Positions 11,046-61,500 of a stretch of DNA of 64,000 bases are shown here, piece after piece (position 1 is the first letter of the stretch; each line of letters begins with the position of its first letter). Made by a program: the position numbers and the translations under genes. The notes below the pieces were generated by a model, which had not been told where the DNA came from, searched no databases, and saw only the letters and a program-made list of their open reading frames with translations. The stretch is from assembly GCA_902728285.1 (NCBI GenBank), contig CACVBU010000616.1, positions 1,799,309 through 1,863,308 on the forward strand, read 5' to 3'. Source of the stretch: Clytia hemisphaerica. Lineage: Eukaryota > Cnidaria > Hydrozoa > Leptothecata > Clytiidae.

Positions 11046-11096
11046 TAACACAAGCAATCAATTAGCAATATAGGTTATGAAGCAAAGAATACTTAC

Positions 11097-17461: not shown

Positions 17462-17463
17462 CA

Positions 17464-17520
17464 TAATAGACCTTTTTTCAAAGAGGATGTCCTGTTGAAT
17501 AATTATGTAGTCCAGCCATA
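17464..17520. mobile_element. partial MITE, ATAGACC-end family
   Basis: This matches one arm of the palindromic element at 26,676-26,859: ATAGACCTTTTTTCAAAGAG, then a shared stretch ending TTATGTAGTCCAGC. Only this arm is present. Confidence 0.65.
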
Positions 17521-17929
17521 AATAGGGGTGACAGTCAAAATTTCAAATTGGTTTTGGCAAAAAGAGACCAGATTATTCTGAAAGCCCTTTTCATTAGAAA
17601 AAAAATGAGGGGTCAGCCAACTTCATAGCTCAAGCGGTTCTCGAGATATGCTCGTTCAAAGTTGCTCAAAATATGTATTTTTATGTGCAATTTTGAAATA
17701 AATTCATAACCTTTTTCAAGCAAAACCTCAAATTGAGAACGGCACCAAAATATGCCAAAAATTGCTTTCTACGAATTTAATTCACAGACAAAAACGACTA
17801 TAACTTTCCATTTAATGAAGCTTTTGACTTGAAATTTTCTGGAGCTCCTCAGCAATCTAATCTAGTTTCATTTACTTTAAGTCTTTACCAATTCAAACAT
17901 ATTTAAAATGCATAAATTAAGGAATAATT

Positions 17930-25994: not shown

Positions 25995-26040
25995 TTTAGG
26001 AAGTTTGAAACCAATCAGAAATCGAAAAAAGTCAAATTTT
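25960..26040 (-). promoter_or_regulatory. candidate core promoter with YY1-like initiator and CCAAT
   Basis: Reading the minus strand, the start codon sits in CTAAAATGGCGGCCACAAAT, which matches the animal YY1 translation-initiator element (AAnATGGCGGC). About 20 bases upstream is CTGATTGG, an inverted CCAAT box. Together these resemble a short 5'-UTR housekeeping promoter. Inference from sequence only. Confidence 0.4.
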
Positions 26041-28787: not shown

Positions 28788-29998
28788 TCTATATTACTAA
28801 ACGTAGAATGTGAGTGAGCCGTGAGGGGGCTATTATGGATTTTTGAGATGGGGGTTCGAGAGCTACGTGACCGATTTTTTGGTCCGATTTTTTGGTTGGA
28901 TGGTTGGGTGGGTGGTTGAAAACGAAAGCGAAAGTGGTCAGGGGAAGAGTGTGGAAATTAGCGTTATTGTGAAGAAGTCGTTGCAGTGCAAATCTTTCGC
29001 AAATTTAAAAACCCACTTTCCCGTGGAAATAATTGACGTTTTTGGGTTTTTTGGGACCCTTGAGGCACAAGGTACCCGATGACCGCAAAAATTTCAAAAT
29101 TCGCGAATTGACCGTTGACAACATTAGGGGTAAAGGGACCCAATGACGTCACAGATTTGAGAAAAACTTCAAAATGCGATATCTCGAGTTTGAAAAGGAG
29201 TTGGAAGGTTTATCTGGTCTCAGATGTGGAAATATGCTACGACACGCTTTGCTCTGAAGGTCGGGCATATTTTAACATCTGAGACCGCTCCATTGGCCCG
29301 CTCCTTTAGAGCTTTAGCGTGGGCGGCCGCCAATACGCCATCGGAATATCAGATAATTGGAAGGTCGGTGACCCCTCATTCGATCGAGAATTTTGTGGAG
29401 AATAAGATGGGAGGGGTTATAAGGCCTGAGTGCGACTTTGAAATTTGGCTGAATTTTTAGGCGTTTTCAGTTGATGACGTCATCAAAACAGGAAAAATGC
29501 GATATCTCGAGATTGGATAGGTGTTGGGAGGTCGTTGACCCCTCATTGGATCGGAAATTTAAAGGAGAATAAGTTGGCAGGGTAAAAGTGGGTATATAGA
29601 AACTTTCAAAAGTAAATGTATTCAAATTGAGGCCATTTTGAGTCCGATGACGTCATCAAAACCTAAAAAATACAATATCTCGAGTTTGATAAGGATTTAA
29701 GCAATGGATGACCCCTCATTGGATCAGAAATCATCGTGAGAATCTTTTGGCTATATGACAAATTGATTTCAGTGAAGTAAAAAATTTATTAAATTTTCGA
29801 TGACGTCATTTAGGGCCCAAATGACGTCACCAAACATAAAATATGCGATTTTTCGAGCTTCGATGAGTGATAAGTGTTAAAATTTCGTTCTTTGGGTTTA
29901 GAACTCAATCTTATTACCCTCCTTACCCAACATCCAAAGAACTTTTGATGTGTTCAACAACACTCTACTCGGCGGGTGCGACGCCGGGTGACGGCTAG
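28788..29998 (+). mobile_element. non-autonomous Helitron, copy 1
   Basis: The 5' end is TCTATATTACTAAACGTAGA and the 3' end is GGGTGACGGCTAG followed by T. A hairpin CGGCG-loop-CGCCG lies about 8 bases before the terminal CTAG. TC start, CTAG end, subterminal hairpin, no inverted ends and no target duplication are Helitron hallmarks. The 1,211-bp interior has no Rep/helicase coding. It carries degenerate repeats of CCCCTCATTGGATC and five perfect TGACGTCA octamers (near 29,142, 29,474, 29,649, 29,801 and 29,821). Confidence 0.85.
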
Positions 29999-32352: not shown

Positions 32353-32785
32353 TACTCTTAGGTTCCAAATAAACGGGGGGGTTCGAATAAACGGGGGGGT
32401 TGGAAAATTTTCTCGATTTTAATAAACGGGGGGGCCTAATTGCCGGGGGGGGGGTTGGAAATTGTACTTCTGAAACCCAAAAATGTGACCCTCCAAGCGA
32501 TATCAAAGACACGAAATTGTTACCGGCAACGTAGCGGTAACATTATTGCCAGCAAATTGGCGTATAATTTACCGATCTTGCCGATCTGGTTTAAATCATC
32601 ACCGGCAAATTACCGGCAAATTACCGCTCAATGGTAGACCGGCAATCTGCCGGCTAAATTGCCGATCTTCAGCGCGACTTCAGATTTTTGACAGCGGCAA
32701 ATTATCGGCATGAGCTGATTGCGTCACTTATTTCGGCTGCCGTGAGAATAGTTTGCCTCGTTCTCACGAAAAGTAGCCATTTTAG

Positions 32786-35700
32786 ACATCTATGCATCCA
32801 TGTATCTATGTATCTACACATCCATGTATCTATGTATCTATATATCTACGCATCTATGTATCAATGTATCTACGCATCCATGTATCTATGTACCTAAATA
32901 TCCATGTATCTATGTATCTATGTATCCATGTATCTATGTATCTATGTATCCATGTATCTATGTATCTAAATATCCATGTATCCATGTATCTATGTATCTA
33001 TATATCTACATATCTACGCATCCATGTATCTATGTATCTACATATCTACACATCCATGTATCCATGTATCTATGTATCTATGTATCTACGCATCCATGTA
33101 TATATGTATCTAAATATCCATGTATCTATGTATCTATGTATCTACGCATCCATGTATCTATGTATCTACACATCCATGTATCCATGTATCTATGTATCTA
33201 CGCATCCATGTATTATGTATCTATGTATCTACATATCTACACATCTATGTATCTACATATCCACGTATCTATGTTTCTATGTATCTACATATCTACGCAT
33301 CAATGCATCTATGTATCTATGTATCTATGTATCTACATATCCATGTATCTATGTATCTATGTATCTAAATATCCATGTATCTATGTATCTATGTATCTAT
33401 ATATCTACATATCTATGTATCTATGTATCCACGTATCTATGTATCTACATATCTACGCATCCATGTATCTATGTATCTACATATCTACACATCCATGTAT
33501 CCATGTATCTATGTATCTATGTATCTACGCATCCATGTATCTATGTATCTAAATATCCATGTATCTATGTATCTATGTATCTATATATCTACATATCTAC
33601 GCATCCATGCATCTATGTATCTACATATCAAAGTATCTATATATCAATGTATCTATGTATCTATGTATCTAAATATCTATGTATCTACATATCTATGTAT
33701 CTATGTATCAATGTATCTATGTATCTATGTATCTATGTATCTATGTATCTATATATCCACGTATCTATGTATCTATATATCTACATATCTACGCATCCAT
33801 GTATCTATGTATCTACATATCTACACATCTATGTATTCACGTATCTATGTATCTATGTATCTACGTATCTACGCATCCATGTATCTATGTATCTATATAT
33901 CTACGCATCCATGTATCCATGTATCTATGTATCTATGCATCCATGTATCTATGTATCTATGTATCTATGTATCTACGCATCCATGTATCTATGTATCTAT
34001 ATATCTACGCATCTATGTATCCATGTATCTATGTATCTATGCATCCATGTATCAATGTATCTATGTATCTACGCATCCATGTATCTATGTATCTATGCAT
34101 CCATGTATCTATGTATCTATGTATCTATGTATCTACGCATTCATGTATCTATGTATCTATATATCTACGCATCCATGTATCTATGTATCTACGCATCTAT
34201 GTATCTATGTATCTAAATATCCATGTATCTACATATCAATGTATCTTTGTATCAATGTATCTATGTATCTACGCATCTATGTATCTATGTATCTAAATAT
34301 CCATGTATCTACATATCAATGTATCTTTGTATCAATGTATCTATGTATCTATGTATCTACGCATCTATGTATCTATGTATCTAAATAGCCATGTATCTAC
34401 ATATCAATGTATCTTTGTATCAATGTATCTATGTATCTATGTATCAATGTATCTATGTATCTATGTATCTATATATCCACGTATCTACGTATCTATGTAT
34501 CTATGTATCTACATATCTACACATCTATGTATCTATGTATCTACATATCTACGCATCCATGTATCTATGTATCTACGCATCCATGTATCTATGTATCTAT
34601 ATATCTACGTATCCATGTATCCATGTATCTATGTATCTATGCATCCATGTATCTATGCATCCATGTATCTATGTATCTATGTATCTACGCATCCATGTAT
34701 CTATGTATCTATATATCTACGCATCTATGTATCCATGTATCTATGTATCTATGCATCCATGTATCAATGTATCTATGTATCTACGCATCCATGTATCTAT
34801 GTATCTATGTATCTACGCATCCATGTATCTATGTATCTATATATCTACGCATCCATGTATCCATGTATCTATATATCTACGCATCCATGTATCCATGTAT
34901 CTATGCATCCATTTATCTATGTATCTACGCATCCATGTATCTATGTATCTATATATCTACGCATCCATGTATCCATGTATCTATGTATCTATGTATCTAT
35001 GTATCTACGCATCCATGTATCTATGTATCTATATATCTACGCATCCATGTATCCATGTATCTATGTATCTATATATCTACATATCTACGCATCCATGTAT
35101 CTATGTATCTACATATCTACACATCCATGTATCCATGTATCTATGTATCTACGCATCCATGTATTATGTATCTACATATCTACACATCTATGTATCTACA
35201 TATCCACGTATCTATGTTTCTATGTATCTACATATCTATGCATCAATGCATCTATGTATCTATGTATCTATGTATCTACATATCCATGTATCTATGTATC
35301 TATGTATCTAAATATCCATGTATCTATGTATCTATGTATCTATATATCTACATATCTATGTATCTATGTATCCACGTATCTATGTATCTACATATCTACG
35401 CATCCATGTATCTATGTATCTATGTATCTACATATTTACGCATCCATGTATCTATGTATCTATGTATCTACATATCCATGTATCTATGTATCTACATATC
35501 TACGCATCAATGTATCTATGTATCCATGTATCTATGTATCCATGTATCTACATATCCACGTATCTATGTATCTATGTATCTACGTATCTACGCATCCATG
35601 TATCAATGTATCTATGTATCTACGCATCCATGTATCTATGTACCTATGTATCTATATATCTACATATCCATGTATCTATATATCTATGTATCTATATATC

Positions 35701-36010
35701 TACATATCCATGTATCTATGTATCTATGTATCTATATATCTATGTATCTATGTATCTATGTATCTACATATCCATGTATCTATGTATCTATGTATCTATG
35801 TATCTACATATCTACGCATCCATGTATCTATGTATCTATATATCTACATATCCATGTATCTATGTAACTACGCATCCATGTATCTATGTATCTATGTATC
35901 TACATATCCACGTATCTATGTATCTACGTATCTACATATCTACGCATCCATGTATCTATGTATATATGTATCTACACATCCATGTATCTATGTATCTATG
36001 TATCTATATA
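32786..36010 (+). repeat. 8-bp satellite array, ATCTATGT orientation
   Basis: About 400 units of ATCTATGT with point variants (ATCCATGT, ATCTACGC, ATCTACAT, ATCTATAT, ATCAATGT, ATCTAAAT) in recurring phrases. All three + frames are open because the 24-bp period has no stop, which creates spurious frames of up to 633 codons. Confidence 0.97.
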
Positions 36011-37181
36011 ATCTACGAGGCCCCCCCAGCGGACCCAAAATTCACGCCATCACGCCAAATTTTTTTCGATTTCACGCCATCACGTCTGAAAATTTTGATT
36101 ATCACGATCACGCCAATTTTTTTCGATTTCACGCCATTTCTCCTAGAAAATTTAGTTTTCACGCTCATATTCTCTGGATAAATTCAGTTTTAGACCACGT
36201 TTAGACCCATTGGTATAGATAAAATGCCTTTATAGAAGCTTAATTTTTCTGTCAATCAGTTTTTCGGCATTCTCATGCGCGTAAGTCAAGATTATATCAT
36301 TTTTCCTATCGGAAACACCCGAAAAATCTGGAAGGAATTTGTGACCTCTGTTTTTCTATTTTTAGTAATACACAGGGGTCAAATTCGAGTTTTTTCGGAT
36401 AGGAAAAATGACGTAATCTCGACTTATGCATATCAAAAATTGTTTGACAACTGGTAGGTCATATCAAAGGGCCCCGGTTTGAGGGCTGAGGTATATTTGA
36501 GTAAATTGACAAAGCCCACCATGGTTGGGCAACAGAAAATTGAAATTTGAAGGGCTCAAAGTGCTATTTCAGGACCCATTTCAATTCAATTTGAAAAATA
36601 ATTCATGTAAAAATAATGGAAATCTTTTAAACGCACAAGTAGCTTTTTTGGTAAAAACATGAGGGGCTATGCCCTTTGGCCCCCCCCCGTTGAAATTTTC
36701 AATTCTCGACCCTAATCGTAGCATTTGACTTTATTTTGAAGACTAGCTAGCAACTGCTAAAGACAATTGGAAGTTACAAGGATAAATGGCAAATGAATAA
36801 AACTGTTTGCACCGTTTCTTTTATGTTTTAAAATGAGATCTATAAGAGGCCCCACCATAGTTGGGGCCGACCAAGAAAATTTTGAAATTTAAACCGCCTC
36901 TAAACTAGCTAAAATGGACATGGAATTACGATTCAAGTAATAAATATAATTTTCACGATCACGCTGAACTGCAAATTTCACGCCATCATATGTATTATCT
37001 ATCTATTTAAAGGATTATAATCATGATTCAAAGATAAAAAATGATCCATTGTTTTACTACATATCTAAAACTTCGCAAAAATCCGGGATTTTCAATGAAA
37101 GTTTCAACAGTTTACTACTGAAAAATGTAGTCAACCGTCTATACATTTCAACTGGACACCATACAAGTTCATGCTGCATAG
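36011..37181. other. spacer between the inverted satellite arms
   Basis: Unique sequence at the symmetry centre. It contains several direct copies of TTTCACGCCATCACG (36,050-36,140 and 36,960-36,990), GAGGCCCC words and a C-run near 36,685. No gene or element boundary established. Confidence 0.5.
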
Positions 37182-38931
37182 TGGATATGTACATACATAG
37201 ATGCGTAGATATGTAGATATATAGATACATAGATACATAGATACATGGATAAATGGATGCGTAGATATATAGATACATAGATACATGGATACGTAGATAC
37301 ATAGATACATAGATACATGGATGCGTAGATATGTAGATACATAGATACGTGGATATTACATAGATGTGTAGATATGTAGATATATAGATACATGGATGCG
37401 TAGATATGTAGATACATAGATACATAGATACGTGGATGCGTAGATACGTAGATATATAGATACATGGATATGTAGATACATAGATGTGTAGATATGTAGA
37501 TACATAGATACATAATACATGGATGCGTAGATACATAGATACATGGATACATGGATGTGTAGATATGTAGATACATAGATACATGGATGCGTAGATATGT
37601 AGATATATAGATACATGGATACATGGATACATGGATGCGTAGATACATAGATACATGGATGCATAGATACATAGATACATGGATACATGGATGCGTAGAT
37701 ATATAGATACATAGATACATGGATGCGTAGATACATAGATACATAGATACATAGATGCATAGATACATGGATACATGGATGCGTAGATATATAGATACAT
37801 AGATCCATGGATGCGTAGATATGTAGATACATAGATACATAGATACATGGATATGTAGATACATAGATACATAGATACATGGATATGTAGACACATAGAT
37901 ACATAGATATATAGATACATGGATATGTAGATATATAGATACATAGATATATAGATACATGGATATATAAAGATGTAGATACATAGAAACATAGATACAT
38001 GGATGCGTAGATACATAGATACATTGATACATGGATGCGTAGATATGTAGATACATAGATACATAGATACATGGATACATAGATACATGGATGCGTAGAT
38101 ATGTAGATACATAGATACATGGATATGTAGACACATAGATACATAGATATATAGATACATGGATATGTAGATATATAGATACATAGATATATAGATACAT
38201 GGATATGTAGATATATAGATACATAGATACATAGATACATGGATGCGTAAATACATAGATACATTGATACATGGATGCATAGATATGTAGATACATAGAT
38301 ACATGGATATGTAGATACATGGATACATAGATACATGGATACATGGATACATAGATACATGGATGCGTAGATATGTAGATACATAGATACATGGATATGT
38401 AGACACATAGATACATAGATATATAGATACATGGATATGTAGATATATAGATACATAGATACATAGATACATGGATGCGTAGATACATAGATACATTGAT
38501 ACATGGATGCATAGATATGTAGATACATAGATACATGGATATGTAGATACATGGATACATAGATACATGGATACATGGATACATAGATACATGGATGCGT
38601 AGATATGTAGATATATAGATACATAGATGCATGGATGCGTAGATATGTAGATACATAGATACATAGATACATAGATACATAGATACATGGATACATGGAT
38701 ATTTAGATACATAGATACATAGATACATGGATGCGTAGATATGTAGATACATAGATACATAGATACATAGATGCGTAGATATGTAGATACATAGATACAT
38801 AGATACATAGATGCATGGATGCGTAGATATGTAGATACATAGATACGTGGATATGTAGATACATAGATGTGTAGATATGTAGATACATAGATCCATGGAT
38901 GCGTAGATATGTAGATATATAGATACATAGA
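37182..38931 (-). repeat. 8-bp satellite array, inverted arm, part 1
   Basis: The same octamer on the opposite strand (ACATAGAT reading +). It shares private phrases with the + arm, including a rare one-unit defect (CCATGTATTATGTATC on the minus strand near 37,515). It is interrupted at 38,931 by a Helitron. Confidence 0.97.
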
Positions 38932-39981
38932 CTAGCCGTCACCCGGCGTCGCACCCGCCGAGTAGAGTGTTGTTGAACACATCAAAAGCCCTTTGGATGA
39001 TGGGGGAGTATAAAAAGATCTGATTTGTATATTGTAAGCCCACAGAACGAAATATTATCACTTTTCACTGATCAAAACTCGGAAAACCGCATATTTCATG
39101 TTTGGTGACGTCATTTGGGCCCTAAATGACGTCATCCAAAGGGTAATAAACTTTTCACTTCACTGAAATCAATTTGTCATTCATCCAAAAGATTTTCTCG
39201 ATGATTTCCGATCCAATGAGGGGTCAATCATTGCTTAAATCCTTCTCAAACTCCAGATATCAGATTTTCAGGTTTTGATGACGTCATCGGACCCAAAATG
39301 CCTCAGTTTGATTAAATTCATTTTCGAAAGTTCCTATATACCCACGCTTACCCCTTCCAACCCATTCTCCATTAAATTTCCGATCCAATGAGGGGTCAAC
39401 GACCTCCCAACACCTATCCAATCTCGAGATATCGCATTTTTCCTGTTTTGATGACGTCATCAACTGAAAACGCCTAAAAATTCAGCCAAGTTTCAAAGTC
39501 GCACTCAAGCCATATAAACCCTCCCATCTTATTCCCCATAAAATTATCGATCCAATGAGGGGTCACCGACCTCCCAACTCCTTTTCAAACTCGAGATATC
39601 GCATTTTGAAGTTTTTCCCAAATCTGTGACGTCATTGAGTCCCTTTACCCCTAATGTTGTCAACGGTCAATTCGCGAATTTTGAAATTTTTGCGGTCAAC
39701 GGGTACCTTGTGCCTCAAGGGTCCCAAAAAACCCAAAAACGTCAATTATTTCCACGGGAAAGTGGGTTTTTAAATTTGCGAAAGATTTGCACTGCAACGA
39801 CTTCTTCACAAAAACGCTAATTTTTTTTCACACTCTTCCCCTGACCACTTTCGCTTTCGTTTTCAACCACCCAGCCAACCACCCAACCAAAAAATCGGTC
39901 ACGTAACTCTCGAACCCCCATCTCAAAAATCCATAATGGCCCCCTCACGGCTCACTCACATTCTACGTTTAGTAATATAGA
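38932..39981 (-). mobile_element. non-autonomous Helitron, copy 2, inside the satellite
   Basis: On the minus strand it starts TCTATATTACTAAACGTAGA (39,981) and ends GGGTGACGGCTAG (38,932), with the same CGGCG/CGCCG hairpin as copy 1. The flanks are A on the 5' side and T on the 3' side. Joining the flanks gives an uninterrupted GATACATA register, so there was no target duplication. It is 1,050 bp and similar to copy 1 along its length. Confidence 0.92.
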
Positions 39982-40570
39982 TACATAGATACATGGATAT
40001 GTAGATATATGGATACATAGATACATAGATGCATAGATACATAGATACATAGATACATGGATGCGTAGATATGTAGATACATAGATACATGGATACATAG
40101 ATACATGGATGCGTAGATATGTAGATACATAGATACACAGATACGTAGATATATAGATACATGGATATGTAGATATATAGATACATAGATATATAGATAC
40201 ATGGATGCGTAGATATGTAGATACATAGATACATGGATGTGTAGATACATGGATGCGTAGATATGTAGATACATAGATACATAGATGTGTAGATATGTAG
40301 ATACATAGATCCATGGATGCGTAGATATGTAGATATATAGATACATAGATACATATATACATGGATATATAGATACATAGATACATAGATACATGGATAC
40401 ATGGATGCGTAGATATATAGATACATAGATACACAGATACGTAGATATATAGATGTAGATACATAGATACATGGATGCGTAGATATGTAGATACATAGAT
40501 ACATGGATGCGTAGATATGTAGATACATAGATACATAGATACGTGGATATGTAGATACATAGATATATAG
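39982..40570 (-). repeat. 8-bp satellite array, inverted arm, part 2
   Basis: Continuation of the 37,182-38,931 array on the other side of the Helitron. It decays into GGAATATAGGAATATG at the right end. Confidence 0.95.
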
Positions 40571-41090
40571 GAATATAGGAATATGTACCATATATTGATT
40601 ACGTAATGTTAGAATGTTTTTATTCTTCGTCTACCGGCATCCATAAGGCCGGCAAATTGTCGGCAAATTGTCGGCAAATTACCGGTATCAAACACCCTTC
40701 TAAAAATAGACGTCACGGCTGGTAACCGCAAAGTTCCCGCCTATAGGTTTAAGAAAGAAAAAATTGCTTGATTTCGTGAACCGATAAATTACCGGCTTAA
40801 TTCTATGAGTGAGCGGACGATTATCGACTATTGCCGGCAAATTGGCGGATCATTTTCCGATGTTTGCCGGAAAGATTTTTATGTACTTAAAATCGCTTGG
40901 AGGATCACAAATAAGGTAAAAATAGGCTAAAATCAGGCTATTTAGAGCAAAATAAGGGCCCTTCTCTTTGACAGCTGAAAATATTCTTAGAGATTAATAA
41001 ACGGGGGGGTCCTAATAAGGTCCGGGGGGGTTGGAAAATTTTCGAAAAATTAACAAGCGGGGGGGCCTGTTTATTTGGAACCTAAGAGTA

Positions 41091-43163: not shown

Positions 43164-46066
43164 ATGAGTTGTGGAAGACAAGGCTGCAGTTGGCTCACTT
43201 GCACACTTTGCAGAACAAGTCATCAGTCTGCACAAACATTACAAAAAGCTTCACGTAGAAGTATTGAATGGCCAACACAAATTCATCAACCACCCAATGA
43301 ACAAGTAAACAAAATTAAATTGTTATTTACACCTTATAGTTATTCAAACAATATTTTTCTGTCAATTTATGACTTTTTATTAAGGGAATTGTCTGAGAAC
43401 ATTTGTGCCTGAGATAATTGTTCCTTCGGGCAAATGTCCTGGAGCACTTATTCTGCCACAGTCAAATTTGTAATAAAAACATTTGGATGCTGATTTAATT
43501 TCATCATAACAGATGAGAAACACACACATGGAGAGAAGTTAAAGTATTACAAAAAACACTGATTTTATCAAGTCTTTTTCTCTAGGATGGTAGTACAAAC
43601 ATTACAATTGATGATGCCTTTGATGATGTTCTACAATACATGACCACAACTGCACGGCAATGCAAAGTAACTTTATAATATGATGTTTTAGCCCCTCCCC
43701 CCAAATTATTTTTCATTGATTTGAAAATAAATTGTATATTTTTTTGGGAGTTTTGAAAGTTATTATGTAGTCTATTTGTGACTCCTCAAGCAATTTTAAC
43801 TGCCTGACCAATCTAACTGGTTTTGTGGTACAGTATAAGGAGTGGTCTTAGTAGCAATCAAATTTTTGCTTTAGATCAGCCTTCAGATCTTCTAGAAAAT
43901 TAGATTTCAAACTATTCTAGTTGCTTGTAAATCTTCATGGCCACTCATTAGACCAGTCCTGGTTTCTCATTAGGCTAGTCCAGGTTATTCGTTAGATCCG
44001 CCATGGTCTTTCTTTAGTGTTTGTGTGTAACAATTACATCCAAAAAAAAGTTTTGAAAGGATAGAGACCGATATGGGACAGCTCTAATCCTTTAAATACA
44101 TGCTTTGAAATGGCTGCTATTAGGGAGTCAGATTTCTTACTTATTTTTATGATAAAACAAGACAGTAATTAGGGATTGGTGGAAAAGCTATTATGCCAAA
44201 TAATTCATTTTCACTTTCTCCATGCTTATATAATTTGTCTTTATATCTCAGCGTTATCATAGATCAACTTGCAGACAGTTCACACGCGACTCTGACCTTC
44301 TGCATCTAAAAAGGTACCATCAAAATCACAAAACAGCTAATTACAAATCCAATCCGGTAAGTTATCATATAATGCATACAAAGTCAAAATCGTTTATCCA
44401 CATTCTTTCCCCTATGTTAATTTTTAATACTTATACTAGCCGTCACCTAGCGTCGCACCCGCCGAGGAGTAGATAAGCTTAACGTATCATAAACCCTTTG
44501 GATGGTGGGGAGAGTATTAAGATTTGATCTTTAACCTCAAAGTCAAAGAACTAAAAGTTACCACTTTATATGGTTGAAAACTAAAAATATTGCAAATTTA
44601 ATGTTTTAGGGCCAAAAATGACGTCATCGAATGTGCAATAAACTTTTCACTTGACTTAAAATATTTCTTCATTGACCAAATAGATTCTCTTTATGATTTC
44701 TGATACAATGAGGGGTCAATCATTGTTTTAATCCTTGTCAAACTGGAGATATCACTTTTTCTTGTTTTGATGACGTCATCAACTGAAAACGCCTAAAAGT
44801 TCAGCTAAATTTGAAAGTCACACTTAAGCCTCATAACCCCTCCCATCTTATTTTCCATAGAGTTCTCGATCCAATGAAGGGTCAACGACCTCCCAGCTCC
44901 TTTTCAATTGAAGATTTTCCCAAATCTGTGACGTCAACGGTCACTTCGCGAATTTTGGAATTTTTGCGGTCAATGGGTAGCTTATGCCCCAAGGGTCCCA
45001 AAAAAACAAAAAACGTCAATTATTTCCAAGGGAAAGTGAGTTTTTAAATTTGCAATAGATTGACACTTCAACGACTTCTCCCCCAAATTTTCACACTCTT
45101 CCCCTGACCACTTTTGCTTTCGTTTTCAACCACCCATCCAAACAATCGGTCACGTGACTGTCGAACCCCCATCTCAAATATCCATAATGATCCCCTCACG
45201 TCTCACTCGCATTAGACTTTTAGTATATAGATTATTATTCCCAATGGAATTTACTTTACTTTACTTGGAAGTAGAATAGAAGTTAATCATTCTACATTTG
45301 ATAATACTTGGGGTGAAGCTGATTATATTATATGTGTTTTTTAAAGTTGACAAATAAATGTATAATTTTGGATCAGCCCTTTTTTTTTTTAATTTAAAGT
45401 TTCGTTTTTCTTGGATTGAGAGAGTCAGCATTTTGTAAAATTTTCCCTCAATTTGATTCTCTCGAATACTCTCAGGTGCCTGATAAACAGGAGGTTGGGG
45501 GGGGGGGTCGAGATAAACAGGGGGAACAAGGGGGGGGTATTTACAGGGGGATTGGAAATTGTACCTCTAAATACTCCAGAAGAAGGTAATTATAGACTAA
45601 AACCTGGCTATTTATTTTTTCTTGTGCCAGGTGAAAATATTTTCAAAAATTAATAAACCAACGGGTCCTAATTAAGGCCCAGGAGATTGGAAAAAAATCG
45701 AAAAAATTAACATCAGACCAGAAGAGGACGCCCCCTAGAATGGCGATTCGCGCAAAAAATAGATTTAGTTTGCTCTCTCCATTCCATATCAATATTTGTG
45801 ATGAAATGTAACTGGCCAGATTGAATATTGGAAAATTGATAAAATGTTTTTAAATGACTTTTTGAAGATCTTTATCTTTTTTATGACTTTTAATAATAAT
45901 TATTTGAAACTTTATCTTATAGCTGCAAAAAACAGAAGAGGTAAACGTAGAAGTAGCTCCAGGAACATATGCCATTAGTGCAGGTGCTTGGGGCTCTGAT
46001 CGCCAACATACTCATGTTATCCATATTAAAGACAGCCAAACTGTAGACCTCAATTTTGAAATGTGA
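43164..46066 (+). CDS. AKIP1: A-kinase-interacting protein 1, four exons, 156 aa
   Basis: Exons 43164-43304, 43586-43666, 44252-44356 and 45923-46066, all phase 0 with GT/AG borders. Exon 1 has a Cys-rich start then AQTLQKASRRSIEWP, matching the N-terminal helix of vertebrate AKIP1 (RSARLALEVLERAKRRAVDWH-like). Exon 2 (DAFDDVLQYMTTTARQCK) matches its FRTMAEFMDYTSSQC-like helix. Exon 3 starts RYHRS. Exon 4 carries the family's most conserved block, VNVEVAPGTYAISAG, then THVIHIKDSQTVDLNF and the terminus. AKIP1 in vertebrates binds the protein kinase A catalytic subunit and influences its nuclear retention and NF-kB p65. That role here is by homology. It is shorter than the human protein (about 210 aa). 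Intron 3 hosts a Helitron and a G-run MITE. CSPP1 begins about 0.4 kb downstream. Confidence 0.88.
44436..45231 (-). mobile_element. non-autonomous Helitron, copy 3, in AKIP1 intron 3
   Basis: On the minus strand it starts TCTATATACTAAAAGTCTAA (45,231) and ends GGTGACGGCTAG (44,436), flanked by A and T. It is 796 bp, an internally shortened relative of copies 1 and 2. Two full TGACGTCA octamers (near 44,619 and 44,771) and one close variant (44,930) remain. Confidence 0.85.
45467..45715. mobile_element. decayed G-run element in AKIP1 intron 3
   Basis: The left end TACTCTCAGGTGCCTGATAA and the following G-runs resemble the left end of the 32.35-kb composite. The right half (AATAAACCAACGGGTCCTAA) parallels the composite's right end, but the terminal bases are lost. 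Confidence 0.55.
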
Positions 46067-49500: not shown

Positions 49501-52500
49501 TCTTAAAAATTCTAAATTGATGAAATTGAGAATGTTTTCAATGAATCGAAATTTGATTTCACTTATTTTTTAACAGGAAACAGCAACACTCAATTGAATA
49601 AAACAAAAACAACAGAAATACAAGTTAGAATTGGAAGAACAAATGAAAGAAAATCAATTACTGAAAGCAAAGTGAGTAGTTTTTTATCACTTTAGTTAGA
49701 CTTTGTGCTGGAACGTAAAGTAAGCGAATAAATTTTCGCGCAGACTTTAAAATTTTGTAAAATTAGAGCCTACTAAATTCTGAAAATGGATCCAAGCAAA
49801 ATTTGATCCACTTTAAGGTATTTAGGAGATTTGAACAAATCAATGTTGACCTTCTGAGTCATCAGGACCCCTTTAGGCTCAAAGTCTTTGGTCTGAGAAC
49901 TTTCTTTCGAGATATTTGTTTGGCGAGAATGATCGATCTACGACACACACGTTTCATGGCATCATCTGAAAAAATTGTGTGTCCGAGACTGCAACAAACC
50001 ACCCTAGATCAAATCGATAATTGGTTAGTGAGTGCTTTTTATTTCAAAATATTTAATCAAATTCGAAATTTAAACAACTTGTTCCTATTTTTGATTTTAG
50101 GGAGAAGTTGAAACGGTTAGGACGTGTTACGTCAGATGTGGACGTTGCTGAAATTGAGGTAAAATTTAATCCATTGAAGTACCTTTATATCGGCACTTTT
50201 TACGCCGGCCCTAATTTAACGCCGGCCCTTATTACGCCACAGCCTTATTTTGGGCTTACGCCAATTAGGGCCGTAAATACTGCCAAAACTTGTAAAAATC
50301 GCTTTTCAGGCTTCAAAACAGTAAGTATTAACATGGAGGTAATAAGTAATAGATAGAGAATGAACTCCTTTTATTTCATTGTACCTAATCATCGGAAGCA
50401 AATGGCTCCTTGATTGCAATGGGAAAAATTGATCAATTTTGTGTGCACTCATGGGAATATTTAAGTTCATAAAAAACTGAATAAAAAGATTTTGGAATTT
50501 TAACAACTCTATTGTGAGATAACAGCTATGTTGATCAAAATAAGAAAAAGCTTGCCGTAACAAGCACAAAATCCTATATTTCTAAGGGTCCCCTCTCATA
50601 AAATCATCGATAAATTTCAAAAAGAATTCTATTACGATTAGGTAACCTTTTAATTAATCATCCATCAGAATTTGAAAGCCCCCTCCCTTTCAGACGTAAA
50701 GATTTATTATGAAGAAATGTTTATTTCAATCAGGATAACATTATCACTTCTGTTCTTATAAATTTAGATTTCGGATTTTTGGACCTACCCCGGTGGGGTA
50801 GAGGTCCTATAAATTAACCGATGTCCGTCCGTTCGTTTCGTCCGTCCGTTCGTCCGTCTGTTACCAGCTTTTCTCAGGATTGGCTTATTAGTTTTTTCTG
50901 ATTTTTGGCACAATGATGCAAAATGGCAATGCCCAAAATGTTACGGAGCCCGATTTTGAAAAAAAAAAAAATTTCCGGCTTAAAATGCGGGAAATATGCC
51001 GGAAATCGCCGTTTTTCTGGATTTTCATTGGACTTTTTCCTTATAATTGGTTGTTTTTTCATTCAAAAACATTATTAATAGCAATGCCCACCATCAAGCA
51101 TGTTTTAAATTTCAATAAAATTGATTTTTGAAGCCGGAACTATTTAAAAATCGCCGGAACAACCTATTTTCTCCGGAAAGAATGTATTTCTTGAATTTCT
51201 CGGGCTGTACTTTATAATTTTTTATGAAATTTTGCACACTGATGCAAAATGACAATACCTAAAATGTGACGGATCCCGATTTTCGAAAAACATTTTTTCC
51301 GGCCGAAAATGCCGGAAAACCGGTTTTTTTGGCATTTTCTCGAGATTTCATCATTAGTTTTTCCTGATTTTTTGCACAGAGATGCGTAATAGCAATGCCC
51401 AAAACATGACCGAGTTCGATTTTTGAGAAAAATTCTTTTCTGGTCGAAAATGCCAGAAATATACCGGAAATCGCCGTTTTTGCAGATTTTTATTGGACTT
51501 TTTCATGATATTTCTTTGTTTTTTCACGCAAAATCATTATTGATAACAATGCCAACCATCAAGTATGGTTTAATTGTCAATAAAACTGATTTTTGAAGCC
51601 GGGACTTTCTAAAAATCGCTGGAACAGCCGATTATCGCCGGAAAAAAAGGGTTTTCTTGAATTTCTCGAGCTGTACTTTATATTTTTTCATGAAATTTTG
51701 CACACTGATGCAAAATTGCAATACATAAAATGTGACGGAGCCTGATTTTTGAAGAAGAAAAATTTCGGCCAAAAATGCCGGAAATATGCCGTCAAAACCG
51801 GTTTGTTGCCATTTTGTCGAGATTTCATTAATCGTTTTTCCCGATTTTTGCACAAAGATGTGTATCAGCAATGCCCTAAGTGTGGCTGATTCGGATTTTT
51901 GAGAATCATGTTTTTCCGGCCGAAAATGCCGGAAGTATGCCGGAAATCGCCGTTTTTGCAGATTTGAATTGGGCTTTTTCCATAACTAAAATTTACAATA
52001 AAAATTAAATGTCATCTTTCAGTATTAAACTATTGAAAATCATTGATTTTCGTGAAGTTTTGGATATAGAGTAAAGAAATGGATAGTTTTCATCCTTTAA
52101 TCATGCCTAAAATCCTTTTAAATTAAGAAAAAAATAATGGTCAAAAGTTAACGCCGCTGTTAGGTAAAAATTGCGAAATTTTGGCCCTTTTTACGCCGGC
52201 CCTTATTACGCCACGAGCCCAAAAATAGCGCCAATAAGGGCCGATAAGTTTATTTCTATCGATGCCGAATAAAACAAGTTTTTCAACCAAACCAGTTTGA
52301 ATTGTGGTGAAGAATTTAAATTCACCTACTCTCGGGTACCTAATAGCCGTCCCCCCCCCCGCTAATTAATTTTTCGAAAATTTTCCACCCAGGACATTCT
52401 TATTCCAACCCCCCCGCTTATTAATTTTTGGGAAAATGTTTTTGAAAGTTCCCTTTTTTGTCTTAATTCTGCTGTATTAGCCTCCTTTTCAAACATTTTC

Positions 52501-55500
52501 CACCCAGGACATTTCTATTCCAACCCCCCCGCTTATTAAATTTTGAGATTTTTTCCAACCCCCCTGCTTATTCCAACCCCCCCGGCTATTAGGTACCCGA
52601 GAGTAAATCATCCAAAATTTAGACTTAATGAAATTAATGAAAACTCAAATTTTAAGGAACAGTTAATGTATTTCATAACTGTTTATGTTTTATGTTTAAC
52701 TCAGCTACCGAAAAACAATAAAAACAAATGGGCTTTACCTGTCCACAACAAGATAGACACATCTCCTGGCACCGCCACTACCAATAAAAGAAATGATAGT
52801 GAACGATTAGGTGACAAAGAAGTATCTCCGCACCAACTACCTCATCAACACCAACAACCACAGTATCCAGTCAACAACATGCAACAACCGGTTATCAATC
52901 CTTTCTATCAGCAACCTGTTATTCAGCAACAATACCCTATGGGTGGGCTACCACAACCCGGAATGTATCAAGCTCCTACCATGCAAGCGATGGGCATGAA
53001 CCCTATGGGCATGAACCCTATGATGCAATGGCAAATGGCACCTTCAGCATATCAACCCATGATGCAACCTGGATTTAACGGCAGTGGTGGTGCACAACAA
53101 TTTAAAGGGAACCCCTATCAAAAGAGTGCTGTTGGAGGAGGAGTATCTGACACTGCAGATACTGACAGGAAGAATTCAGCCCGCAACAGAAAACAATGGG
53201 ATGTCCCACCACTCGATTTAGACGGATCTATCAACAAAAATCAAAGTAAGAAGATAAAATTTGAATGCTCGAAGGTTTTACATGATAATTATAAGTTGAT
53301 CTTGAAAAAAACATTTAAAAAACATTTTTATATCAATTTATTTTGTGTAAATCATGGAATAAATTTCTCAGTGCTTTGTAGATAGTGAGATGAGAGACTT
53401 TGTACAAATTATTCTTTTCAATTAAGGTAACTTCTCTTCGAGAACACAACACGATTCTTCCACGACATCTAACAAAATGAACATACCACGTCGGCCGAAT
53501 GTTCAACCGCCTGGTGGAAGTGGCCACAATCTGTTCAACTTACCTCAAACCAACAACAAAAATGTCACTGGAGATGGTGATGAAGCTACACAGAAACGCC
53601 TGAAGCAATTGCAATACCAAAAAGAACTACATTTGCAGGTTCGTTGAACTTTCTTCTTTCTACAAATGAATATTATCCGAAGCCAGCATTGTAGTTCTTA
53701 TCAGCGGATGTTTATTTCACGTATGACACTGTTTGTGAGGCAACATTTTTACAAATCACACTGTTTGTGGGGTAACATTTTCACAATGAAACTGTTTGTG
53801 TGGTAAATCTTTTCAAACATTATTACATTACGATTTATTTCATTGCTGAAACCAATATTCGTTGACCAGCAAAATGTTGTCCTCTTGAAATGTCATCCCT
53901 TTACAGCCTCAATCAGCGGTGGCAATGATTATTTATTCTTTTTGATTATTTTTTTCGCAAGCTGTTCCTTCCTTGTCCTTTTTAATTTTATATTTTTGAA
54001 TTTTTCTAGATGGAGATCAAAAAAGAAAAAGAAGCAAAAGCAAAACGAGAGCATGAAAGGTGAGATTTATAGTTTTTCAATCGATACGTCTGAGCCAAGT
54101 AATAATGCGGAACTCTTGAGTTCTTATTTGTTTTTGTCTATTGTTGTTATTCCAGATTTTTATGTGTTAATAACGAATGAAAGGGTAACTCAATCTTTTT
54201 CAAGAGTTGCAGAAACAAATGCAAGTGAACTTGAAAACGAAAGATATATCTTTATGAGTAGCATAGGCTAAATTTTCCTTCTTCACTTACAGATATGAAC
54301 AGAAACTTGAGCGGGAAATTGAAGCTTACGACCCTTGGGGACGTGAAGGAGCCGGTGCTCCGGTCCGTAATAAAGATGGTCACATTGTTGGTATGTATTT
54401 TTCTATAACTTTGTTCATGATAATTTTTGTGCTTAAGACTCCCTTGTCGGTCTCGGTGTGGTTAGTGAGCAATCTCTGTTTTTTACAGCTCAACGAGTTC
54501 AACTTTTATTGGTTGGCCTTTCTCAGTTCTCAGATGGTTAGAACAATTGTACCGCAAAAAAATTGTCGTTTTGAAGTTAGTGATTGATGGACTCTTCAGC
54601 TGGTTGAAGCTCTCTCATTACACTTTTCTTTTTATGCTAAACTCTTAAGACAGTGTAACGCTATCATTTAATCAAAAGCAACTTTTCAGTCATATCATGA
54701 ACAATTGAACATTCGGGAATTCGAAATCGTTCAATTCGATAACAGGTTCACGTTGCGTTACCTCCAAACCAGCTGGAAAATACGGTTCTTTAACAAATGA
54801 CAAGTTTGATTCAATGACAAGGCTGAAACATTCCATGCGGATTGGTTCCACGACAATAGTGTGCAACGGCTCGACGATAACTGCACGTTTCAGCTCGCCT
54901 ACAACTTCAATCAGCTCTTCAACCACGGGAATCGACTCTATAACAGCAACTTGAATTGGCTCCACGATGACAGTGTGCATTGGCTCTACAACGACGCGAG
55001 ACGAAACTATGGGAACATCATTTATTGGCTCTGCGAACAATACTTGTGACAGATCTTCATTGACGAACAACCTTTTAGCAATCAAAGACTCTTTAACGAA
55101 GGATGGCTTTTCAACGACAAATGAATCATCAATATGAAACGACTCTACATGCAACGGCTCGCTACTGACGCCCGACTCATTCTTAGCGACTGACTTACCA
55201 TTGCAATTCGTTTTCCTCTGAGACTTCAATAATTTTCGTTTTCTCAGCTCCTCCTCTAGTATTTCCAATTTTGCTTCATGTTTTTCGATTTGTAGCTGCA
55301 ATTCACGCTTTCGTTTTTCGTACTGGAGATCATATTGTCTCTCCCAATTTCGACGTTTGATTTCTAACTCGGCACAGTATGCTTCATATTCAGTTCTCAG
55401 TTCTCTGCTCATTAAATTGCGAGAATACACTGCAGTTGTTGACTTTTGACTTGACATCGCCAGGAACGCCTCGGACCAAAAAGGAATTAACTTCTTGATA

Positions 55501-58500
55501 GTTTCCTCTATCCAAAACTCTTTACTTTTGGAATGATATGTCCTTCTTGACGATCTGGATGAATCCATGTTACTGTCGAATCAAAGGTGGCAGCTTCCAA
55601 TATTTAATTACTGTGAAGTGACATGTTGAATAGTGTTTTACTTTAACGGTCCCAAAAAAGAATGACCATTAGTGAGGTGCTGTGTTTACTGACTTCTTTG
55701 ACATAACGAAGACGCTAAAAATAATACAATAATAAACACATAAATATAAGAATACAAAGTAGATTCTAAACACAAGTCAATAGGTAACATAGACAGATAA
55801 GCTATACATAGCAAAATAGAATATGTACAAGAAATAAACTTACTAAAACACTGTGGCACAACACTACATCACGTCACATAAACACTACACAAGCTTCTAC
55901 AAATTTCACAACACATTTTATACATTTACAAATTCTAGCTCAATCTGGCTCAATAATAGCCAAGGGACATGACAAATACATTTGAGAATACTATATACAA
56001 AGAATAATTACTATAATAAAAGTACTTAACTGTACAAACACAGGAGAAGACCAACACACAAAAGATGCAATGTCGAAGGAGAGTGAAATAAAACGATAAT
56101 GAGCTAGTTTACAAAACAATAAAACATAACGCAAATTTAACTGCCTCTAAAAGGTAGTTACAATTTTGGTAGTTATCAGCTTTTGATTAAATTCGTGCCA
56201 AATATTATTGCCGTTGTAGCTACGATATGTGAATAGTCGATTATTGTAAACGCTCAAACCCACAACTTTCTGACACTGACAGGTTTAAAAATGACCAGCA
56301 CTTAACATCATGCTTTCGAATTTCTTGATTAGTTGTCATAGTGAGTTTCGTTTGCTTTTACTCGCCGACTGAAGTTTTGGTTTTATTTTCATCCCATTGA
56401 TTATTATTTTGTCTGTTTATGAATAAATATTGATTTCTTTTTAAAATTTATAATTCAGTTTTTTTCTCGTTTCGAGAGAAGTTGTTCGATGCAAGGCGAT
56501 TATAATCCATTTTGAGTCTCTATTGATCGTGTTGGTTTTATCGTGGGTTCTATACTTAGGGATTTGTCCAGTCTTATTCTAATAAACGATTGGTTAGATT
56601 CTTTTAGAATGAGTGGAGATCTTCTGATCAATAAACGGCGTGAAAAATACAATGACAGTGATTCGGAACATCGGTCCAAGTCCTTGTTAGATTGCATTCG
56701 AAAAATTGAAATGAAAAATGAAAACACGAGCACTACTCTCCAGTTGGAAAATGAAGTTTTAAACGAAAAACTAAAAAAAATGGCTGCTAAGAGACGAGAA
56801 TTGCAGAACAAATGTCGGCTTTTGGAAATTGAAAATCAGACCCTTTGCTCGAAGTTGAATCGATGTATCGAAGTTTTTGATATCATGCGGGCTGACTTAA
56901 ATCAATCTCTTGCTCATAAGAGAATGATGCAAGAAAAATACTCTCTTTTGCTTTAAGATAATCAACAAAAAATCAAGGTGTTAAAATTTATGCTTAGGAG
57001 TAGAATGAATCCTAGAGACTCTTTTGGCCCTCTCAATTGAAAGAAAACTCTCGAGTCACATTTTACGTGGGTTTGTTCAAAGGATAAATTTAGTGTATTT
57101 ATAATGAAATAGATGGTGCATTTTTATATTTACATAATTTACAAACAATGTTGTATATAAAATTAAGAATTCAATAGTATACGTTATTGTTATAAATTGT
57201 ACATTGAAAATTTAACGATAATGTATCCAAAAAAAAACAAAAAAACTTTATAATAATAGGGGCAAACCCTTAGGACCCGTGACGTCTTTAGTGCGACGCA
57301 ACCAAGTTGCATTTTGACGTCATTTTCGATCGATTTTCCCGATTTACGTTTGGAAATCGACTATTTCCACTTAAAAGTCCTCTATATCGTTTTTCGAGAG
57401 CTTTCGGTTGGTATAAGTGGTTTCGAGTTTTATCGAGTTTGAAATTAATTAATTTAGAAATTTTAGAGGTGCTGTGACGTCAGTTTTTGAGTCACAAAAA
57501 AAATTTCCCAGGCCTTAGCGAAAACTCTTCTCGCGAAGAACTCTTTAAAGTTTGGTTGCGTCGCATTAAAGATGTCAAGGGTCCTAAAGGTTTGCCCCTA
57601 CTATAAATATGACCATCCACTTTCTGCTAAGATTCGATCTAGCCTAGTTTTATTTTCTACTCTGTAAATTTTCCGAAATTTAATAAAATTTGAACATATG
57701 GATTGATCAAGCGGAAAAATTTACTTTTTTATAAATTTGGTTGACAATGGATTCGGAAAAATGTTGTGCAGATAATGCCCGTGCTCAAATATTGATGGAT
57801 TAAGAAATTATGAAAAAGAAAACACATCAACTTTGTATTGAAACTGTTTTTCAAAAAAACTTTGGGTCTGCATTTTAAACTTTGTTTGAAATAATGTAGG
57901 CTTACAGAATTTTTCCCGATTTAATGATGTTATTTTTTCTTTTCCTTTAAGAAATAAATACCTCTATTTTCAGATATAAAATTTGCCTTTCTTAACTTCT
58001 TCCCCTAGTTAGTTATTTAAAAGATTCACTTTCTAAACTTCTTTCTATTAAAATGGTATTGTTTAACGTATCTCCTACCATTTTGCTTACGCAGCATTTT
58101 TAAACTAAAGAATGAACCAACTTTTGAGAAATTCTTTTATCAATTCTGTTTTGTCAGTATAAGTCTCGTGCCTACTTCATAAACCACACGAAAGAATATT
58201 TTTTACTATTTTGTAGCGAATCTGAAGAACTACCAGAATGATCATGACAGCCCTGGCAAACCACAAGATCACCAGTACCAACAACAACAACTCCAGCAAG
58301 ATATGCATTCTGGTGGTGAAGAAAGTCCTCTCATGAAAGCACTTAACGAATCACAAAATAAAGGCACTCTTGCCAACACCTACAGAAGCCCCAACTCCAG
58401 TATGAATGCTGGGCAAAGTAAGTATTCACTGATGTTTTGTACCATTTTCTATATCTACTCTCGGGTACCTAATAGCTGGGGGGATTGGAATAAGCGGGGG

Positions 58501-61500
58501 GGGGGTTGGAAAAAATCTCAAAACCTAATAAGCGGGGGAGGGGGTTGGAATAAAAATGTCCTGTGTGGAAAATTTTTGAAAAGGAGGCTAATACAGCAGA
58601 ATTAGGACAAAAAGGGAACTTTCAAAAACATTTTGACAAAAATTAATAAGCGGGGGGGGGGGGGTTGGAATAAGAATGTCCTGGGTGGAAAATTTTCGAA
58701 AAATTAATTAGCGGGGGGGGGACGGCTATTAGGTACCCGAGAGTAAGTTGATATGAAAAATGTTCGATATTGCAGTCGATTGCGGTGCCTTAGTCTTTTG
58801 AAATATGAATTTTTTTTCCAGACCACAAATCACCAAAAACATATGCACGAGGTGCTGCTCTCAAAGAACTCAAAGGAATCGGTTCAAAGGTAAGACTACT
58901 TTTATCTAGTTCGCTGAAAAATAGTAGGACCCTCCAGGAGTACGACTTAAGACAATCGTAAAATAGATTTTGATGATGACAGTCAGTTCAAAATATTATC
59001 AGTAGTCAAATGTGTTATAGGTCGTCCTGGTGAATGACTAATAAATGTCAATTATTATCAAAACGTCCGGTTGTTCATAGACCTTTCCATAACAGCCCCT
59101 TTCATCTAAATATCCTCACAAAAACGGATGTTTAACCCTCAATTCTTTCTTCTTCATCCGAAACACTCGCCTAAAAACTCATATTTCACACCCATTTAAA
59201 AAAGTTTCCCTCGATCCACCGTTCAAGCATTTGCTAATTGAAAATGGAATTCTTTAAAACCCTGTAGGTGCTACTTTAGGTTCCTTGTCGAACATTAAAA
59301 TAAATATCAAAATATTTTATTTGATTATCGTGTCCCGACTGCCTTATGTAAAGCAATTTCTATGGGCTATATCTTCGAAAATTTCAATGTTGCTTGATGA
59401 TAGTCCATTACAGCATGAACATATAAACGACTGGACATCCATCTCCTTTGTTATTTTGTAGAAAGGGCTGCTAGCTTCGTTGCCGCCTCGTTAAAAGCAT
59501 AAAATGAAACAATAAATTTTGATGATATACCACTTGGGAATACCTTGCTAACAACGTCAAAACCTCGACAAAAGTCTCTGTTGTTCTACTTTTCTCAAGT
59601 CTTTCATCTATATCATAACAAAGATAACAGAGGCAAAATCATCGTCAGCTTTTCAAAACTCCGACTAATATTTTTAAATTTTGACTTAAAAGTGTCGATT
59701 AATTTTAGAGAGTGTCACATTCTAATTTTGATATTCTTATGACACAGGCTCTCAACTTTGGCAAGCTATTTTTTTCAAGTCATAAAAAAAATTATTGGAG
59801 TGATAAAAGGGATTCAAAAGTATACACGCAGTTGAAATTCTGCATTTCAGAATAGAAAAATGTTGATAAAATATATTGCAAACTTGTGGAAAAATTCGAG
59901 AATAATTTTTTTGTGCATTAGGAGTAATGTTTAAGCTCTATCAATCATTTTACCTAAATAATTCAAAGAAATAAAATTATGACGGAATATTGTCGGGATT
60001 TTCATACCAATTTTGAAATACAGGCGGCAACGAAGCTCGCTTCAAAGAGACAATAAAAGATGGATGTCCATTCGTTTATATGTTCATGATTACAGTAAGG
60101 AAAGTTTTCAAAATTACCAAACTTATAACATTGTTTTTTGCCTTGTTCTTAGAGTCCACGTGATCAAGTAGAGCAAGACGAGTATAAATCATTTCTTCGA
60201 CAACAAGTATGAACATTTACTTTTTTTCACTCCCGTTACCTTTCTCACGGATAAGGTTCGGTACTTTAGGGAATCTGCAGATATAGATGACTGCCCAAGC
60301 GATTTAAAGTACCTGAAAACCGGACCGGTCTTTAGACGGTATTTTAAGGGCCGGTAAAAGTTTACCAAAGGGACGCTACGAGTTCACTTAATTTAGCGAC
60401 AGTCAAACGAGCAGCCAAGGAGCGGTCAAATGAGCACCTACAAGCACCTACGGGTGGTCTTAAGACCGATTTAAATAAAAAATTTGAGTAAGAGCACTAG
60501 GCTGCTCGTAACGTACCAAGACCGGTACAATTTTCATGTACTTTAAGTTGCTTGGGGAGTCACAATGGCTTCTGGCTTTTTAACAATTCACCTCTTTTTA
60601 TTTGCTTTCTTGACTAAAGCTAGAAATTCACATTCTCAGTGACAACGGCAGCATATTAGGTTACGCATGAAACGTCGGAACTTGGGAATCATTTTGAGAT
60701 ATATGAAAAAGTTTCCAACACTATTAAAGAATATAGCTTCAATGCAGAATGACTCTGCAAACTGAAATTGAAGTTGCAAAGGTGTCGTCAAGTTATTTAT
60801 CTGGTCAATTGCGTCATTTTTAGAAAACAACTCTAAGTCCATCAAATTAAGGGGTGCTTCTGTAACGCAGATACCTAAATCGGTGATCGCCAAAAGTAAC
60901 AAGAGAAAATGATATGTGCTCATTTTTTTCAAGTGTTTCCGGTTACTGGTGATGATATAACAAATAATCAATGAGTTGCATATGATTCCTGTGAGTTTTA
61001 TAACGAATGCAAAATACAAGTTGAAAATGCCAACATAGCCTAATGGCTCATAATAGCCTGATCCTGAACCAGATCCACTGAAACTATCATTCCGGGAGTC
61101 TTCCACCTCTGATGTTTGATTTGACCATTCTTGATCTCCTGATATGTAAATATCTTCGCCTGACATGACACAGTCACTAAAAAAAAGTAGGCTTGCTTCG
61201 ACCTTCTTCAAAATTTCATCAGTCAAATTGATGGTAGGTCACGTTGATGATCCTTTTAAGCAGTAAATCTTTAAGCTATTTTGTTGAGGCTTTTGTTTTA
61301 AATATATATTAAAGTTATATACTATTGTCGAATGAAGTTTAATAATGTGTTTTATTTCAATACTAATAGTTTCACGCCGTGGAGACAATCATCAGTTGAA
61401 AATAAATTATTTTTTTAACTACTAGAGTTCGTTTTAAATGTTTACGAAGAACAATGTACTGGTTTCTTTTGACAACAATTGACGGCAGTCTTTTATTAAA

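Follow-up and report, generated by a model that had tools for sequence, protein, structure and literature searches.

A foldback-type transposon of Clytia hemisphaerica and a satellite that adjoins three families of transposon ends

The stretch of Clytia hemisphaerica DNA analysed here (64,000 nucleotides of contig CACVBU010000616.1, hereafter the window) contains, at positions 32353-41090, kilobases of an 8-bp satellite lying in two opposed orientations within two concentric pairs of inverted ends. The locus raises the question of whether a satellite can travel inside a transposon, and of how it came to be there. The original prediction, made from the window alone, took the two shells for one nested carrier. 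Comparison with related loci in the assembly leads to another reading: the outer shell is a common miniature inverted-repeat transposable element (MITE), the landing site of a separate transposon (family A, 32484-40909) that appears to have jumped into it, doubling AA. The same satellite adjoins two further kinds of ends, families B and C, and family C is the most likely source from which family A obtained its arms and the small core between them, as one block and in a single event. We infer both transposition and capture from sequence comparison.

Two pairs of ends in one locus

Both pairs of ends are present as predicted. The 22-base outer ends (32353-32374 and 41069-41090) match with 0 mismatches, which 0 of 100 shuffles achieved; for the 18-base inner ends (32484-32501 and 40892-40909; up to 3 mismatches), the match count was equalled in 1 of 100 shuffles. 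Tandem Repeats Finder (TRF) likewise recovers the opposed arms, with one orientation at 32788-36015 and the other at 37193-38931 and 39977-40570. The supposed 1.2-kb unique centre is composite: 969 bp of it occur only in the window copy among the copies read, and a 207-bp core is common to other copies. The division of the right arm into 1.7 and 0.6 kb is present, but is due to a 1,045-bp Helitron-like repeat (38932-39976). The features of the locus and its relatives in the window are the following.

32353..41090, no strand: outer MITE, about 310 bp without the insertion, with ends TACTCTTAGG.../...CCTAAGAGTA and TA at both edges; split by the inner element
32482..32483, no strand: left AA of the 2-bp target duplication that flanks the inner element
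40910..40911, no strand: AA, right copy of the same duplication
32484..40909, plus strand: putative inner transposon, satellite copy of family A, 8,426 bp
32484..32787, plus strand: left terminal segment of family A, 304 bp, starting TGTGACCCTCCAAGCGAT; breakpoint at 304 relative to satellite-free copies
32788..36009, plus strand: left satellite arm made of (ATCTATGT)n and its variants; higher-order period of 32 bp (TRF run 32788-36015)
36016..36984, plus strand: insertion with TTTCACGCCATCACG-like repeats, found in the window copy only among the copies read; centre positions 970-1176 alone match other copies
36985..37191, plus strand: core fragment, 207 bp, apparently a cut-down piece of the family C interior
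37193..38931, minus strand: right satellite arm, part 1, 1.7 kb
38932..39976, minus strand: Helitron-like dispersed repeat within the right arm, one end being CTAG; related repeats lie at 28793-29998 and 44432-45231
39977..40570, minus strand: right satellite arm, part 2, 0.6 kb
40584..40909, minus strand: right terminal segment of family A, 326 bp, with the end TGTGATCCTCCAAGCGAT on the minus strand
52327..52605, no strand: short MITE without satellite, relative of the outer shell
58456..58745, no strand: short MITE without satellite, relative of the outer shell

The outer end is very frequent in the 417-Mb assembly, with 1881 forward and 1859 reverse matches (up to 2 mismatches), and at least 20 facing pairs at 273-327 bp are found among the matches listed. 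Six short copies were read; all align over both halves of the outer shell of the window and none contains satellite. A single carrier built from both shells is therefore rejected. Short and non-coding, with inverted ends and TA at both edges, the outer shell has the structure of a Tc1/mariner-type MITE. Five of the six copies have the empty site CCCAAAAATAAGG at the point of insertion, and the sixth has the variant ACCAGAAAATAAGG. The window reads ...CCCAAAAA, inner element, AATAAGG..., and AA is taken to be doubled because the empty site has one AA less than the window copy. The original prediction placed short relatives of both shells within the window; those of the outer shell are there (52327-52605 and 58456-58745), but none of the inner end was found when up to 3 mismatches were allowed. 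Elsewhere in the genome the inner end does have short relatives. Short family A relatives, about 0.5-0.7 kb long and ending in, for example, TGTGACCCCCCAAGCGAT and TGTGACCCTCCAAACGAT, were seen at C13, C74, C170, C245, C361, C290 and C398 (loci are designated by contig).

Family A: satellite-bearing and satellite-free copies

The inner 18-base end has 89 + 85 matches in the genome at up to 1 mismatch, 37 of them exact. Among the exact matches, 22 form 11 inverted pairs, 3.5 to 19.4 kb apart, each composed of one CCC-type and one TCC-type end. All 11 paired copies, including that of the window, were read. Nine of them carry satellite arms, 0.95-3.2 kb long and built of the 8-bp unit, with the left arm always (+) and the right arm always (-) in elements of either orientation; the remaining two (C404 and C937), 13.0 and 19.4 kb long, are satellite-free. 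Identical 2-bp flanks, all composed of A/T, border nine of the 11 copies and eight of the nine with satellite; under independence, matching flanks in nine of 11 would arise by chance with a probability of about 3e-9. Satellite also lies beside the left segment of family A at three more loci: C244 (left end truncated), C493 and C680 (cut by the contig end). The genome search for ends and arrays separates the two shells, the outer end having thousands of matches with no satellite in the six copies read and the inner end having arrays in nine of 11 pairs, and the idea of a satellite that can travel is well supported by the latter.

The satellite is regular in unit length: of 4,660 units from 11 satellite copies, 4,253 have eight bases and 1,435 are ATCTATGT. 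The 32-bp higher-order period is the strongest in three of the four satellite copies tested. With long inverted arms of tandem repeats and a target-site duplication around the whole element, the inner element is by structure a foldback transposon, a known kind. It would be a non-autonomous DNA transposon of the cut-and-paste type, with 2-bp A/T target duplications, not the duplications of about 9 bp made by Mutator-like elements (MULEs). One copy, C796, contains a further inverted tandem array in the space of about 2.6 kb between its satellite arms. The unit of this array resembles GGGAGGCGGGAGGCTGAAAACGAAAGT and its centre measures about 1.4 kb, so that a foldback-like structure is nested inside the 8-bp satellite element.

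An interior of about 11 kb is for the most part common to the two long copies, C404 and C937, and parts of it are also present in C374, C731, C391, C850 and C700. Neither a satellite run nor the core was found in either copy. Between the A ends, a spliced reading from C937 matches DUF7869 (Pfam, E=4.5e-18); the gene reads as if it contained introns, and pieces of these open reading frames (ORFs) of C937 also occur in C404, C374, C731 and C391. No Pfam match was obtained for a Ser/Pro-rich ORF on the opposite strand of a long copy. Because the long copies are without satellite and encode a DUF7869-type protein between A ends, they are the likely source of a putative transposase. A 7.9-kb insertion lies inside the long copy C937 (oriented positions about 10607-18494) and includes an ORF with a Tesmin/TSO1-like CXC match below the Pfam cut-off (E=2.6e-4).

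The 304-bp left segment gives 24 rows: 12 satellite loci, eight satellite-free junctions and four partial or second pieces (C643, C679, C184 and C540). In the eight satellite-free loci the sequence GAC is followed, at the same base, by TTTTCAC. Satellite stands directly after this GAC in 10 of the 12 satellite loci: eight junctions are clean, the first unit differing by a single base in one of them; that of C335 is briefly disturbed, and at C680, where the contig ends, the reading is noisy. The other two left junctions are noisy (C252) or different (C493). For the right segment, nine of 27 rows continue beyond the break, at position 327, and into satellite-side sequence. Among ten satellite copies the terminal segments have a mean identity of 98.8% on the left and 99.0% on the right, as against 96.7% and 96.9% to the other copies compared. 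One founder and a recent spread are the best explanation of the satellite copies, because these have a common left breakpoint and are about 99% alike. Of the two origins first offered for the array, acquisition or expansion inside an element, the comparison decides for acquisition in family A, where satellite-free copies meet unrelated sequence at the junction.

The order of units within the arms was compared by alignment of unit strings, using the first 150 units from each shell. Between copies, the scores are 19.5-81.7 for left arms and 20.7-56.3 for right arms (36 pairs drawn from nine of the 11 satellite copies, all except C252 and C493); the control, a single pair shuffled six times, gives 8.8-16.1. 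Unit order is thus partly collinear between A copies. Left and right arms of the same copy score 12.8-51.9.

Families B and C and the origin of the arms

A 29-base satellite word has 443 matches in the genome, 232 of which are in the 13 A elements examined, and a second word of 32 bases has 149. The places outside family A come from among the matches listed (to contig C244 for the 29-base word and to part of C649 for the 32-base word). They add something that the original prediction did not foresee, namely that the same satellite is also found next to two further kinds of ends; no similarity among the A, B and C ends was detected at E 1e-3.

The end of family B, GGGTTACGACATAAGTTGGCGCC, has 25 matches. 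Both loci read at both ends are bordered by 9-bp target duplications, AACCAAAAT at C193 and AAAACAAAC at C544, the length being that of MULEs. At C193 both ends are followed by satellite. At C544 this is so for the right end, the left being bordered by other sequence, and C185 carries a B end on a single side.

The end of family C, GGATAGA(G/A)TGCC(T/A)CG..., has 17 matches, with close pairs at C261 (1.1 kb), C338 (10.9 kb), C649 (14.3 kb), C760 (12.7 kb) and C862 (10.8 kb). Each of these five pairs consists of two unlike ends. In five loci the GAA-type end leads without mismatch into ATATCTATG, and satellite beside a C end was read directly at C338 and C649. The genome contains 91 matches to the MULE domain (150 of 157 candidates scored); one of them (C594:2891341) lies 8.2 kb from an unpaired C end, which is a weak link. 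A MULE transposase as the owner of B or C thus found no support, none of the 91 matches being inside a paired B or C copy.

The core links families A and C. It measures 207 bp in the window copy, has a longer form of 764 bp in C325 and is present in seven of the 11 A satellite copies. Close relatives of its parts are located inside C338, C649, C760 and C862, as well as in C578 and C788 (40 of 1,555 candidates scored); most of the weaker matches come from a high-copy repeat within the core (about positions 398-708). At C578, C788 and C338 the sequence runs on where the A copies switch to satellite, and the A core would therefore be a cut-down piece of family C. C133 begins with a family C end, continues with about 4 kb of one-way satellite and then enters core sequence (96% over 156 bp). 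C493 is a possible intermediate, a single element in which A ends are combined with 101 bp of a family C end (98%), with satellite and with the core in reverse.

We consider it probable that family A captured arms and core as a block from family C, and that the satellite is a module shared between transposon families. A plausible route is the repair of a broken or excised A copy by copying the middle of a C copy, through which arms and core would arrive together; interrupted gap repair of a cut-and-paste element can produce a copy that retains about 300 bp at either end and has its interior replaced. The coding interior of family A would thus have been replaced by mirror-image arms of 8-bp satellite, mostly around the small core. 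The satellite-bearing element would then have moved to at least nine sites, its arms lengthening, shortening and collecting insertions copy by copy, and the window copy would have landed in a common MITE. The longer satellite-free relative, with its DUF7869-type protein, probably supplied the putative transposase, and the family may still be active. Members of family B carry the same arms, and the satellite therefore seems to behave as a module shared between transposon families. For the wider proposition that foldback arms are a transferable module, one mirror pair of 8-bp satellite passing among at least three families that differ in their ends and target duplications, we regard the chances as even.

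Some observations weigh against this interpretation. Matching flanks are lacking in two of the 11 paired A copies, C487 and C937 (one left base read, mismatched). The right junctions of C493 and C244 are unlike the rest, and more than one event may therefore be involved. The terminal segments fail to separate satellite copies cleanly from others: the right segment of C937 is up to 99.4% identical to satellite copies, support in the trees is low, and C493 and C680 are counted among the other copies in the comparison of identities. The core is not detectable in four of the 11 satellite copies (C34, C716, C252 and C796), and in four of 11 the similarity of left and right arms is in the range of the shuffles. 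Outside family A, the paired B copies C40, C558 and C612 are without the 32-base word among the matches listed, and therefore not every B copy carries satellite. For the C ends at C49, C760 and C862, the adjoining satellite amounts to no more than the final bases of the search word. At C338, the sole C copy read at both ends, matching flanks could not be recognised. To these is added the above lack of a MULE domain inside paired B and C copies. Finally, DUF7869 is a putative transposase whose role is suggested by its place between the A ends; the literature searched contained no paper on it.

Each family might instead have taken the satellite independently from an ordinary chromosomal array, both 3' ends copying one strand during repair and then being joined. 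This would yield inverted arms without a transposon donor and accounts for their inward orientation in all nine paired satellite copies; the one-way array of about 4 kb at C133 and the direct joining of satellite to A in 10 of 12 A satellite loci, with no C or B end sequence, are in agreement with it. Since the core of seven of the 11 A satellite copies matches the family C interior, and since C133 starts with a C end and enters the core, so that it is not an independent array, we judge such separate acquisitions unlikely. The palindrome could also be a mobile element in its own right that inserts into other transposons, as the three kinds of ends and the reversed satellite and core of C493, at another place inside A, might suggest. 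In the other A copies, however, the A interior is missing rather than interrupted, the left breakpoint common to 10 of 12 loci fits one replacement better than repeated insertion, and no ends or duplications of the palindrome itself were seen at those junctions. This makes an independently mobile palindrome decidedly improbable.

Growth of the arms from within, by tandem duplication of subterminal sequence in A and separately in B and C, follows the model put forward for Tetris and Galileo and is a route discussed for foldback elements in the portions available of three accounts (PMC4079207, PMC3169594, PMC3573991). For family C it would be in line with the GAA-type end, which ends in TATCTATTG(G/A)ATATCTATG. 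The long A copies, however, have no satellite run, the satellite begins at an abrupt breakpoint, and the same 8-bp unit adjoins ends without mutual similarity. The abrupt common junction is the ground for rejecting arms grown from A's own subterminal sequence, and as an account of family A the idea is largely refuted; taken over all three families it has very little probability. Least credible of all is an assembly artefact from collapsed or mis-joined satellite reads. The arms are repetitive, C487 holds 465 N, C680 is at a contig end and C252 reads as low quality; nevertheless, nine paired copies in different sites and flanks have the same order of parts, eight of them with their own matching 2-bp flanks. 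Block capture from family C is the preferred explanation.

Other features of the window and comparison with known systems

The repeat that divides the right arm belongs to a GACGTCATC-rich dispersed family ending in CTAG, present in the window at 28793-29998, 38932-39976 and 44432-45231. Helitrons have a 5' TC and a 3' CTRR with a hairpin, and insert between A and T without duplication. The repeat at 38932-39976 has CTAG and then T on the minus strand, and its opposite end does not start with TC. A tandem array at 3633-10518 consists of about ten units, each near 645 bp, with a similarity of roughly 91-100%. The ORFs within the satellite, which are unbroken reading through the repeat, were rejected as genes. 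Five ORFs of the window outside the satellite have no Pfam match, and an ORF of 1,374 codons (21915-26039, minus strand) has none. There are no Rfam matches at gathering scores in the window. In the 417-Mb assembly as a whole, the nematode SL1 22-mer is without an exact match.

The locus bears on two open questions, the source of foldback arms and the scattering of satellites over chromosomes. If foldback arms are indeed a transferable module, a satellite can spread through the genome by recruiting several unrelated transposases, and a foldback structure can arise in one capture step, not by gradual growth of its own ends. One and the same assembly preserves a satellite-free relative, a satellite-bearing derivative, a putative donor family and, in C493, a possible intermediate, and would allow a direct test of a route other than own-end growth. 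The derivative copies, about 99% alike at their ends, would be young enough for presence/absence differences between individuals. In addition, a DUF7869-type protein is tied to an element with inverted ends and 2-bp duplications. Inverted arms of short direct repeats are typical of the foldback elements FB of Drosophila and FARE and Tnr8 of plants, to which the present elements are likened by description only.

The closest of the systems compared, in the text available for each, share several of these traits. Like Tm1, a Mutator/foldback family of root-knot nematodes (PMC3169594), the present families have composite inverted ends, a variable number of short repeats, asymmetric extreme ends, 9-bp duplications, and long coding and short relatives. 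The short tandem repeats of Tm1, of about 14 bp, are described for one family; here the unit has 8 bp, the arms reach 3.2 kb, there are three kinds of ends, and one of these, bordered by 2-bp duplications, has a relative that codes for DUF7869. Tetris of Drosophila virilis (PMC4079207) is also a non-autonomous foldback element with tandem repeats in its inverted ends and a link between transposon and satellite, but its repeats of about 220 bp are thought to come from its own end, whereas the satellite here appears foreign to family A. Galileo of Drosophila (PMC3573991), with a transposase of the P superfamily and up to three tandem repeats of about 210 bp in one subfamily, resembles our elements in its long, internally repetitive inverted ends, the independent change of its arms and its chimeric copies. 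Exchange in Galileo stays within the element, whereas here it would take place between families with unlike ends. In the Pacific oyster, satellite-like arrays are likewise dispersed by a mobile element, in the part of that account available (PMC7492417), but the carriers are Helentrons, unlike the present elements with inverted ends, target duplications and mirror-image arms. The Tm1, Tetris and Galileo papers (PMC3169594, PMC4079207, PMC3573991), in their accessible portions, discuss how an element may enlarge its own ends or how exchange takes place within a family. In the literature searched, mostly without subscription papers, no title or abstract opening among those listed gave an account of one satellite serving as arms of several end families. 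What appears to be new here is one satellite arm common to three end families with unlike duplications, together with a putative DUF7869 vehicle.

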